This document shows, piece after piece, positions 49,246 through 61,407 of a stretch of DNA of 64,000 bases (position 1 is its first letter; each line of letters begins with the position of its first letter). Origin of the DNA: an uncultured Mycoplasmatota bacterium (GTDB lineage: Bacteria > Bacillota_I > Bacilli_A > Izemoplasmatales > Izemoplasmataceae). The position numbers and the translations under genes were made by a program. Location: the NCBI GenBank assembly GCA_913062645.1, contig CAJXVW010000001.1, forward strand, positions 1,302,001-1,366,000, given 5' to 3'. The notes under the pieces are model-generated. The model ran no database searches. It was given only the letters and a program-made list of their open reading frames with translations, and was not told the origin of the DNA.

Positions 49246-49905
49246 TCAAAGGCCGAAATGAGCCACAATTTCGTTGTATTTTTCTTCGATGTCATCGTCC
49301 TCGCCATGCCGGATGACACATTTGAATCCGCTGTTCAGATAACGGTCATGGACGGCTTGACTGTTGATTTTCATCAGGCCTTCTCGAAAGTTCTGCAACG
49401 TCGCATCCGGATCTTCCGTTTTGTCGATCTCATCCAGCAGAAACCGTTTCTCCGGATCGCTGCGATCAAAGAACTTGTTGACGGACAGTTCCTGTGGAGC
49501 GAGCATGAACACGACATGATCGTAGTCGCTGATCTGTGCCAGGAGATCCGCGGACAGATTGGTGTCGACGATCACTTTGTTGTCACGGGCGAGTTGCATC
49601 AGTTCCGCCACTTCGAACTGGGCGATTTCGTCGGCGGTGTTGGCGATCCACGCCGCGTACTCGTCCGGCGTGCGCGTGACGAACTCCTGCCAACCCGACA
49701 TGGTCTGGAAGTAACACAGATTGGGAAACCGATCCGGCGTCGCGATCGACAAGAACTTCTTCAATCCGTAGTTTTCCCCACAATGAATGAGACCCTTGCG
49801 CTCGGCAATCATCCGGACGACCGTTGATTTCCCGGCATAGGCAGTCCCGTTGATGAAATACACGTTGTTCAAATAGGCTTTCAGAATGCTGTCATCAATA
49901 TGCAT
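49246..49905 (-). CDS. P-loop NTPase/kinase-like protein, unknown function
   Basis: A 219-residue cytoplasmic protein with a Walker A VYFINGTAYAGKST (about residues 15-28) and otherwise mostly helical sequence; VIVDTNLSADLL (about 112) could hold the Walker B Asp. The size and single P-loop suggest a small-molecule or nucleotide kinase, but no specific family is recognised. It is the third gene of an operon with a TrmD-like protein (19 bases upstream) and a serine hydrolase. GAAGGGGGAG precedes the ATG. Confidence 0.7.
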   Translation of the reverse strand: MHIDDSILKAYLNNVYFINGTAYAGKSTVVRMIAERKGLIHCGENYGLKKFLSIATPDRFPNLCYFQTMSGWQEFVTRTPDEYAAWIANTADEIAQFEVAELMQLARDNKVIVDTNLSADLLAQISDYDHVVFMLAPQELSVNKFFDRSDPEKRFLLDEIDKTEDPDATLQNFREGLMKINSQAVHDRYLNSGFKCVIRHGEDDDIEEKYNEIVAHFGL

Positions 49906-49924: not shown

Positions 49925-50536
49925 TTATTTTTTGTGTGTTTTGATGTATTGTTGGTACAAGTCCGGACGACGTTCCTTGGTGCGTTTCAGTGACTGTTCG
50001 TGTCGCCATCTGGCGATTTCGGCATGGTTGCCGCTGAGCAACACTGCCGGCACTTCCTTGCCATCGATGACACGCGGTCGCGTGTAATGCGGGTGTTCGA
50101 GAAGTCCGTCGTTGAAGGAATCATGAAGATGCGATTCTTCTTTGTTCAGAACCTCGGGTGCCAGCCGTGTGATCGCGTCCACCAACATCATCGTGGCGAT
50201 GTCGGGATCGATGTTGTCGTTGACGTTCCAGACCGCATCGACCCAGCTTGCATCGACCGTCTCTTGCATGTTCGGTGCATAGAGAATGATGTGCTCGTGT
50301 CGGGCGCTTCGATAGGCCATGGGTTGCGTGAAACTCGAACCGGACGCATGGGCCATGATCTTGTGGGCGGATTCCCATCCCGTGACGCTCGCAACCGCGT
50401 CCCTGAGGACATCGAAATTGTTAAGATCGACGATTTCGACGTGCAACTTGTCGGTGTTGCGGGCATGCCACATGATCGATGAATTCAAATATCCGCGGTA
50501 CTGTTCGGGATGATGGGTCAGCACATGAACGATCAT
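49925..50536 (-). CDS. TrmD-related SPOUT protein with lost SAM-binding knot
   Basis: A 203-residue protein clearly descended from tRNA (guanine-37-N1)-methyltransferase TrmD. The C-terminal half reads DAITRLAPEVLNKEES, DSFNDGLLEHPHYTRP, VPAVLLSGNHAEIARWRHEQSLKRT and ERRPDL, nearly standard TrmD. Catalytic Arg (DAITRL) and Asp (HDSF) are present. The SAM pocket is gone: CGRYEG(I/V)D has become YAPNMQETVD, and IGDYVLTGGE has become VNDNIDPDIA. The N-terminal YGGGxGM loop and about 40 residues around it are missing. It is unlikely to bind SAM normally. It is coupled (ATGA) to the serine hydrolase gene upstream. A true TrmD is expected elsewhere. Confidence 0.85.
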   Translation of the reverse strand: MIVHVLTHHPEQYRGYLNSSIMWHARNTDKLHVEIVDLNNFDVLRDAVASVTGWESAHKIMAHASGSSFTQPMAYRSARHEHIILYAPNMQETVDASWVDAVWNVNDNIDPDIATMMLVDAITRLAPEVLNKEESHLHDSFNDGLLEHPHYTRPRVIDGKEVPAVLLSGNHAEIARWRHEQSLKRTKERRPDLYQQYIKTHKK

Positions 50537-51489
50537 GATCGCAACTCCTCACGGATCTGATTGTGAAGCGCAAACACGTCGTCCCGGGCATTGGAAATCA
50601 CCGTGATCAGCAAATCATCGCTGTGGTTGAACGACGAGATGAACGTAACGCCGGGATCCTCACCGACGAAGTTCGGAGTACCGTCCGGATACAGCCAGAT
50701 ACCAAGCCCATATCCAAAATGCTCCTCGAAGACATGCGGATAGAGCATCTGCCGGAGCATGGCCGCGCCAAGCAACGTTCCGTCGAACAACCCATCCCAG
50801 AACAAGGCGATGTCGGTCGGATTGGTGAAGGCACCGCCGGCACCGCTGCCTTTGGCATCGATGCTGTAGATGTTGGTTCGCCACGATTCATCCGCGTCGA
50901 TGATGTAACCATTGGCGCAGTTGGCGGGAAGCCGGTCCAGTTCATGATAGCCCGTCCGCGTCATCCCGAGCGGGGCGAAGATGGTGTCATGAAGATGCTT
51001 GTCCAGAGGTTCGCCGGTTGCTTCTTCAAGTACCAAACCAAGCAGCACGAACGCCGAATTGTTGTAGTGGAATATGCCACGACGAGTATGAAGCGGTGGT
51101 TTGTCCACAAATAGCGGTAACAGATCGCGGCCCGTGCGAATGCGATAGTTGGGCAGATCCTGCCACAGCAGTTCATAGTCGGGAACCTCGTCTTCATCAC
51201 AGTAGTCCGGTACATTGGACGTATGCGTGAGCAGTTCGAACAAGGTTGTCGAGGGATCGAGCCGACCGGGAACGTCCTTCAGAACATGTTCTAGGGTATC
51301 TTCCAGATGCAGGCGACCTTGTTCGATCAGGCGTAAAACGGCCACGGCGACAAATACCTTGCCGGCCGATGCCGTGCCGAATGACGTCGCCTGGTCATTG
51401 GTAAGTTCGTTGGCGATGTCGCGGTAACCAATCGGCTGATGACGTGTGACGGTCCCGTTGTGACGTACGTAAATAATGCCGTGTCGCAT
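50533..51489 (-). CDS. Beta-lactamase-family serine hydrolase
   Basis: A 318-residue class C/esterase VIII-type hydrolase with SAGK (Ser41, Lys44), a YNN second motif (FHYNNSAFVLLG), the usual LLTHTSN and FAPLGMTRTGY stretches and a GSGAGGAFTN loop. No signal peptide. Substrate unknown; peptidase, esterase and amidase activities all occur in this fold. It begins the operon with the TrmD-like and P-loop genes. ATG at 51489 follows AGGAGGT. Confidence 0.85.
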   Translation of the reverse strand: MRHGIIYVRHNGTVTRHQPIGYRDIANELTNDQATSFGTASAGKVFVAVAVLRLIEQGRLHLEDTLEHVLKDVPGRLDPSTTLFELLTHTSNVPDYCDEDEVPDYELLWQDLPNYRIRTGRDLLPLFVDKPPLHTRRGIFHYNNSAFVLLGLVLEEATGEPLDKHLHDTIFAPLGMTRTGYHELDRLPANCANGYIIDADESWRTNIYSIDAKGSGAGGAFTNPTDIALFWDGLFDGTLLGAAMLRQMLYPHVFEEHFGYGLGIWLYPDGTPNFVGEDPGVTFISSFNHSDDLLITVISNARDDVFALHNQIREELRS

Positions 51490-61035: not shown

Positions 61036-61112
61036 TGGTCGGGATGACAGGATTTGAACCTGCGACCTCTTACTCCCGAAGCAAGCGTTCTACCAAGCTG
61101 AACTACATCCCG
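61036..61112 (-). tRNA. tRNA-Pro(CGG)
   Basis: A 77-base gene including CCA. Acceptor CGGGATG/CATCCCG, anticodon stem CTTGC/GTAAG with one G.U pair, loop TTCGGGA giving CGG. Last of a four-tRNA cluster transcribed from the minus strand. Confidence 0.94.
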
Positions 61113-61159
61113 ACGAGGAAATAAAAAAATGATGAAAGATCATCATGGGAAGTTTGATT

Positions 61160-61236
61160 TGGTCGGGAAGACAGGATTTGAACCTGCGACCTCTTGGTCC
61201 CAAACCAAGCGCTCTACCAAGCTAAGCTACTTCCCG
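61160..61236 (-). tRNA. tRNA-Pro(TGG)
   Basis: A 77-base gene including CCA. Acceptor CGGGAAG/CTTCCCG, anticodon stem CTTGG/CCAAG and loop TTTGGGA giving TGG. Its T-arm is identical to that of the CGG gene, suggesting duplication. Confidence 0.95.
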
Positions 61237-61247
61237 CAAAAAAAGAG

Positions 61248-61324
61248 TGGCGCGCCCAAGAGGACTTGAACCCCTAACCTCTTGATCCGTAGTCAAGCGC
61301 TCTATCCAATTGAGCTATGGGCGC
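61248..61324 (-). tRNA. tRNA-Arg(ACG)
   Basis: A 77-base gene including CCA. Acceptor GCGCCCA/TGGGCGC with discriminator G, anticodon stem CTTGA/TCAAG and loop CTACGGA giving ACG. The first base should be edited to inosine by TadA to read CGU, CGC and CGA. Confidence 0.95.
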
Positions 61325-61331
61325 GTTTGTC

Positions 61332-61407
61332 TGGCGGTCCTGACGGGACTTGAACCCGCGATCTTCGGTGTGACAGACCGACATGTTAACCACTACACCA
61401 CAGGACC
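61332..61407 (-). tRNA. tRNA-Asp(GTC)
   Basis: A 76-base gene including CCA. Acceptor GGTCCTG-type stem (CAGGACC on the plus strand), anticodon stem TCGGT/ACCGA and loop CTGTCAC giving GTC, discriminator G. It is first in the cluster; the promoter TTGATT-N17-TATAAT lies at 61452-61457 and 61429-61434. Confidence 0.95.

Follow-up and report, generated by a model that had tools for sequence, protein, structure and literature searches.

The tRNA m1G37 methyltransferase TrmD is broadly conserved, is considered essential in various bacteria and serves as an antibiotic target, and to our knowledge it has until now been described as a homodimer of identical subunits. The structure of Haemophilus influenzae TrmD with tRNA and sinefungin contains one tRNA per dimer, in which subunit A supplies the SAM pocket, Arg52, Tyr54, Gly59 and Gln90, while subunit B supplies Arg154, Asp169, Ser170, Phe171, Arg183, Ser198-His201, the linker and the tRNA-contacting C-terminal domain (CTD) (PMC5372744). 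These A and B roles, taken here from reviews, are filled by two copies of one full-length gene product.

Pairs of methyltransferase-like proteins are known from other systems. In METTL3-METTL14, DNMT3A-DNMT3L and the PRMT7 pseudodimer, a methyltransferase is aided in activity or substrate binding by a paralogue or domain in which SAM binding has been lost (PMC10908127), yet these are eukaryotic Class I (Rossmann) enzymes whose active member retains its own catalytic site, whereas in the system described here the catalytic residues are divided. Closer in fold are the paralogous SPOUT proteins mt-LAF5/6 of Trypanosoma and Upa1-Upa2 of yeast, which form actual or assumed heterodimers (PMC12123411, PMC8994135); both pairs are, however, eukaryotic and rRNA-linked, mt-LAF5/6 being discussed together with a 2'-O-methyltransferase and the Upa1-Upa2 dimer being assumed only, and no report of residue-level complementary loss in either pair was found in the literature searched. 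An engineered heterodimer of wild-type NHR and its R135A mutant shows that one functional subunit suffices for methylation by a SPOUT dimer (PMC4409310), although this is a laboratory point-mutant construct, neither natural nor reciprocally deleted. It was noted in 2007 by Tkaczuk et al. that inactive SPOUT members, unreported at that time, might exist as subunits of heterodimers (PMC1829167). For TrmD itself, the literature searched yielded no description of a heterodimeric or split form.

The window (the whole stretch of 64,000 nucleotides that was analysed), from a free-living relative of the mollicutes that belongs to the Izemoplasmataceae, contains a gene, here termed trmD2, for a partial TrmD paralogue. 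Its features and those of its immediate surroundings, all on the minus strand, are as follows:

50533..51489, minus strand: upstream ORF, beta-lactamase/penicillin-binding-like (PF00144), in the same gene string as trmD2; starts after AGGAGG
50545..50550, minus strand: GAGGAG, Shine-Dalgarno-like site, 8 nt before the trmD2 ATG
49925..50536, minus strand: trmD2, TrmD paralogue of 203 aa with the SAM site erased and the catalytic/C-terminal half intact (ORF, profile matches, alignment)
50408..50536, minus strand: residues 1-43, TrmD N-terminus, still recognisable (alignment)
50339..50350, minus strand: residues 63-66, SAM cover loop replaced, HASG for S/TPQG (alignment)
50261..50281, minus strand: residues 86-92, SAM wall loop replaced, YAPNMQE for LCGHYEG (CGHYEG to APNMQ-) (alignment)
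50201..50227, minus strand: residues 104-112, SAM bottom loop replaced, NVNDNI--DPD for SIGDYVLTGGE (alignment)
50165..50167, minus strand: Arg124, equivalent to catalytic Arg154 of E. coli and H. influenzae TrmD, kept (alignment; role from PMC5372744)
50114..50122, minus strand: Asp139-Ser140-Phe141, equivalent to Asp169-Ser170-Phe171 (general base; Phe171 essential), kept (alignment; roles from PMC5372744)
50024..50035, minus strand: Ser168-Gly-Asn-His171, equivalent to Ser198-His201, D-stem recognition motif, kept (alignment; role from PMC5372744)
49928..50122, minus strand: Asp139 plus the C-terminal tRNA-binding domain, every near-invariant residue kept (conserved-column count)
49246..49905, minus strand: downstream ORF with a weak P-loop kinase-like match and no demonstrated link to TrmD2

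The trmD2 gene looks expressed, since its codon-position GC (0.59/0.36/0.67) is like that of neighbouring genes, it is preceded by the GAGGAG site and its ATG shares a 4-bp ATGA overlap with the stop of the upstream ORF. Neither the beta-lactamase-like nor the kinase-like neighbour has an evident tie to tRNA modification. When the locus was compared with those of congeners, only the beta-lactamase-like ORF was found to have a relative (in G002), at another site and with no adjoining TrmD; relatives of the kinase-like protein are patchily distributed, occurring in 9 of 49 family genomes including this one and in none of the congeners.

Membership of TrmD2 in the TrmD family is supported by a match of residues 47-191 to PF01746, the tRNA_m1G_MT domain (E=1.4e-27, 97.1 bits against a cut-off of 27.3), and by a PDB sequence search that returned 27 distinct TrmD chains (best E=4.8e-33), while its TIGR00088 trmD score of 146.8 bits falls below the 195-bit equivalog cut-off. 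Structure prediction, which had been proposed as a check, yielded a TrmD-like fold by AlphaFold2 (pLDDT 88.6), with TrmD accounting for all of the top 50 PDB matches, although the input alignment consisted mostly of canonical TrmD and may have biased the model in that direction. The original prediction described a C-terminal half that is almost textbook TrmD, with catalytic Arg and Asp retained, and glycine-rich SAM segments that are replaced; both descriptions agree with the alignment. The N-terminal GGG loop, in contrast, was said to be replaced as well and is rather cleanly deleted: the 23-residue Asp50/GGG loop (KHxKVDDxPYGGGxGMVLxVxP) is missing in frame between residues 43 and 44 (50407/50408), next to the recognisable N-terminus. 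Among scaffold residues that are otherwise conserved, TrmD2 carries F9H, M12Q and R39N.

The genuine trmD, suggested to lie near rimM and rplS, was indeed located there, but as a partial gene. Searching all 1.99 Mb of the genome (2 contigs) with PF01746 returned only two partial matches, namely TrmD2 (model positions 49-195) and a second protein, TrmD1 (model positions 8-135). The gene for TrmD1 (C1:1242487-1242984, minus strand, 165 aa; PF01746 match C1:1242514-1242900) is unlinked to trmD2, at a distance of ~109 kb, and directly follows rimM, the usual place of trmD in the rimM-trmD-rplS operon. The gene order is KH/rpsP, ABC genes, rimM, trmD, an arylsulfotransferase-like gene, rplS, a ccpA-like and a tyrS-like gene, as named by sequence resemblance and E. 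coli gene order, and the operon is syntenic with those of three congeners, each carrying a single full-length TrmD. The C-terminus of TrmD1 reads ...HALGSNEKEGHPDA before the stop, its reading frame stopping at ...DNIVRHALGSNEKEGHPDA, and none of the reading frames downstream contains the coding sequence of the missing C-terminal domain. TrmD1 retains the complete SAM knot, the Asp50/GGG loop and Arg154, and is without the linker, Asp169, Ser170, Phe171 and the CTD. Because the 8-bp overlap between its stop and the start of the next gene is retained, just as in congener G001, TrmD1 looks like the product of an in-frame loss of linker and CTD and not of a frameshift. Its TIGR00088 score is 183.2 bits, below the cut-off, versus 324.2 bits for a full-length congener, and the otherwise conserved scaffold residues changed in it are S20D, I21R and Q96A.

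The losses in TrmD1 and TrmD2 are reciprocal. An alignment of 37 full-length TrmDs, numbered on E. coli TrmD (NC_000913), contains 64 columns that are at least 95% conserved, 53 of which can be assigned to the A or B role. Conserved A-role residues (SAM knot loops, Asp50/GGG loop) are present at 30 of 31 positions in TrmD1 and at 2 of 31 in TrmD2, while B-role residues (Arg154, linker, Asp169, CTD) are complete in TrmD2 (22/22) and reduced to Arg154 in TrmD1 (1/22). Fisher tests of this partition gave p ~6e-13 and ~1.5e-12, and excluding the deleted loop still gives 5e-10 for the TrmD2 contrast; the TrmD1 result deserves less weight than its p value suggests, since the 21 residues lost there may stem from one deletion, and hence be non-independent. 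Taken together, the two proteins hold 52 of the 53 residues in the subunit in which the structure requires them, the sole exception being Leu138 of TrmD1, which is Met. Mean residue frequencies agree with this division: the CTD of TrmD2 (0.59, versus 0.53-0.58 in normal TrmDs) is equally family-typical, the SAM/loop region of TrmD1 scores 0.76 (normal 0.75-0.77) versus 0.16 in TrmD2, and by the same measure the scaffolds of both proteins have drifted. Losses among near-invariant scaffold residues are also divided, S20, I21 and Q96 being lost only in TrmD1 and F9 and R39 only in TrmD2, which could be the mark of a heterodimer-specific interface.

Based on these findings, we infer that TrmD1 and TrmD2 each form one half of a single tRNA m1G37 methyltransferase that acts as an obligate heterodimer, a reading to which we assign a probability of roughly 0.8; TrmD2 is most plausibly the half of the m1G37 enzyme that TrmD1 lacks. 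TrmD1 would act as 'subunit A', its trefoil knot binding SAM and its Asp50-Gly59 loop reading G36 and the anticodon-loop backbone, while TrmD2 would act as 'subunit B', contributing Arg154, the linker, the general base Asp169, Ser170/Phe171 and the D-stem-gripping CTD. Both homodimers should be dead, because TrmD2 is without a SAM site and TrmD1 without the general base and the tRNA-gripping domain. Of the two composite sites of the heterodimer only one could work, because each gene misses the other's half; SAM and G36/G37 would be held in TrmD1, with the rest coming from TrmD2. An ordinary TrmD homodimer likewise uses one site at a time, its mode of one tRNA per dimer matching the proposed single-site heterodimer (PMC5372744; PMC9508554), and the heterodimer would be the only arrangement that uses all conserved residues of both proteins. 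The pair belongs to the same family as H. influenzae and E. coli TrmD (PF01746/TIGR00088), jointly holds every functional residue of one active site and would follow an already known division of subunit roles (PMC5372744), but it is encoded by two unlinked half-genes, whereas known TrmD comes from a single full-length gene and its two subunits are equivalent. One review places Asp50 in 'the second protomer' (PMC9508554), which conflicts with the simple model: if the Asp169-bearing subunit was meant, Asp50 would be missing from TrmD2. The assignment of three residues of this loop (R52, Y54 and G59) to subunit A (PMC5372744) fits the heterodimer model. The changes at otherwise conserved scaffold positions in both proteins, and the restriction of the pair to one genome, also weigh against the model.

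The need for the m1G37 product appears to persist in this organism. All Pro (CGG, GGG, UGG) and Leu (CAG, GAG, UAG) tRNAs of the genome carry G36-G37, including two in the window:

61036..61112, minus strand: tRNA-Pro(CGG), G36-G37, expected m1G37 substrate
61160..61236, minus strand: tRNA-Pro(TGG), G36-G37, expected m1G37 substrate

A search of the genome for Trm5 by way of the TRM5-TYW2 domain returned nothing above threshold, the best match reaching 23.1 bits, below the family cut-off of 28. The genomic tRNA set (including window positions 61036-61407) also contains tRNA-Arg(CCG) with A37, and tRNA-His(GUG), Arg(ACG) and Val(GAC) with G37, the last without G36.

To establish the distribution of the short form, a survey of relatives having been advised, PF01746 was surveyed in ~540 distinct genomes of the class. 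The genome of the window is the only one of at least 95% completeness with a partial best TrmD match (next weakest best match: 6.5e-49), and a pair like TrmD1-TrmD2 was found in this genome only. Short TrmD matches in three genomes (G029, G037 and G040) were rejected as further split cases because they are located at contig ends. Four of the 391 class genomes of at least 95% completeness (G107, G209, G280 and G362) have no PF01746 match, which reflects TrmD loss or a missing contig, and one other class genome (G487; contigs C22 and C34) has two full-length TrmD matches. Within its GTDB genus, the genome of the window shows a large shift in GC content (~54%, versus 30-38% in congeners).

Scanning of TrmD2 residues 1-143 against the genome contigs returned no relatives. 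The corresponding scan with a further alignment (A2) returned 554 relatives; the 80 that were retained share 31-39% identity with TrmD2 in the best segment, and no orthologue stands out among them. In the named collection, the best match of this alignment was a contig of Candidatus Izemoplasma GMC6. No relatives of TrmD2 were found in viral contigs, and there is no sign of a mobile origin, because matches in phage and plasmid collections are all below 60% identity and those that are annotated are ordinary TrmD. In a phylogenetic tree, the TrmD2 CTD clusters with TrmDs of the Izemoplasmataceae at modest to weak support, and the N-termini of both proteins fall near the same genomes, on long branches without starred support (end branches 1.15 and 2.6). 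From these placements, a duplication inside the lineage is read as the likely, if not proven, origin of the pair. The duplication would have come first, after which each copy would have shed exactly what its partner supplies. We also consider it probable, if a little less firmly held than the heterodimer itself, that an essential homodimer became an obligate heterodimer in a single bacterial lineage by complementary degeneration of the active site across unlinked genes. The known one-tRNA-per-dimer asymmetry of TrmD would in this manner have been fixed naturally.

Other explanations were weighed against the heterodimer. TrmD1 alone might still make m1G37 as a knot-only homodimer, with TrmD2 serving as a regulator or as a pseudo-methyltransferase that binds tRNA: TrmD1 has the SAM knot in full as well as Arg154, a lone GpG dinucleotide is accepted by TrmD as a minimal, albeit poor, substrate (PMC9508554), and SPOUT enzymes without a CTD, such as TrmL, exist (PMC3763551). 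This is nevertheless unlikely, as TrmD1 is missing Asp169, Ser170, Phe171 and the CTD that binds the D stem, the activity of known TrmDs drops strongly when Asp169 is substituted and is abolished by substitutions of Phe171 (PMC5372744), and the retention by TrmD2 of exactly the 22 B-role residues would be left unexplained. The original prediction had considered TrmD2 a possible tRNA-binding pseudo-methyltransferase, and this TrmD paralogue is indeed expected to bind tRNA and not SAM, but its missing half, TrmD1, had gone unseen; a new SPOUT activity or a regulator, also put forward, is less likely because the trmD at the canonical locus of this genome also encodes just half an enzyme, without linker, Asp169 and CTD. 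The refuting case of no second trmD combined with normal m1G37 formation by TrmD2 does not apply cleanly, given that a second trmD exists, though incomplete. Recent pseudogenisation is argued against by the retained motifs. The broader possibility that both genes are decaying, with m1G37 lost or made by another enzyme, draws on the drifted N-terminal scaffolds with their long end branches and on the four class genomes without a PF01746 match; we regard it as very unlikely, since the loss is non-random, each half retaining essentially all residues of one role, the open frames, Shine-Dalgarno sites and operon overlaps are intact, and all G36-G37 Pro and Leu tRNAs are present while no Trm5 exceeds the cut-off.

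A heterodimer with an altered target or specificity would be in keeping with the scaffold drift, and with A37 in tRNA-Arg(CCG) and G37 in tRNA-His(GUG), Arg(ACG) and Val(GAC), yet between them the two halves retain the G36/G37-reading Asp50 and Asp169 as well as the D-stem motif, and the genome would otherwise be without an m1G37 enzyme, so that such neofunctionalisation seems highly improbable. The pair is known from one genome, which would fit an assembly artefact or chimera in which the 3' part of trmD is missing and a contaminating paralogue is present. However, both genes are located within a 1.375-Mb contig, one of the two that make up a genome of 99.7% completeness and 0.4% contamination, the TrmD1 deletion is in frame with the stop/start overlap retained, the codon GC of trmD2 matches that of the genome, and the TrmD2 CTD groups, albeit with weak support, with Izemoplasmataceae and not with distant taxa; an artefact is accordingly extremely unlikely.

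If the heterodimer reading is correct, TrmD1-TrmD2 would represent the first TrmD heterodimer found in nature, in which evolution has made permanent the asymmetry between the two subunits that crystal structures show, and it would provide evolutionary evidence on the subunit roles that is independent of crystallography. Gene-by-gene annotation pipelines would call both halves broken, as TrmD1 and TrmD2 both miss the equivalog cut-off. The pair would also offer a clean system with one active site for half-of-the-sites measurements without recourse to mixed mutants, and a tractable bacterial case of the passage from homomer to obligate heteromer by reciprocal loss.
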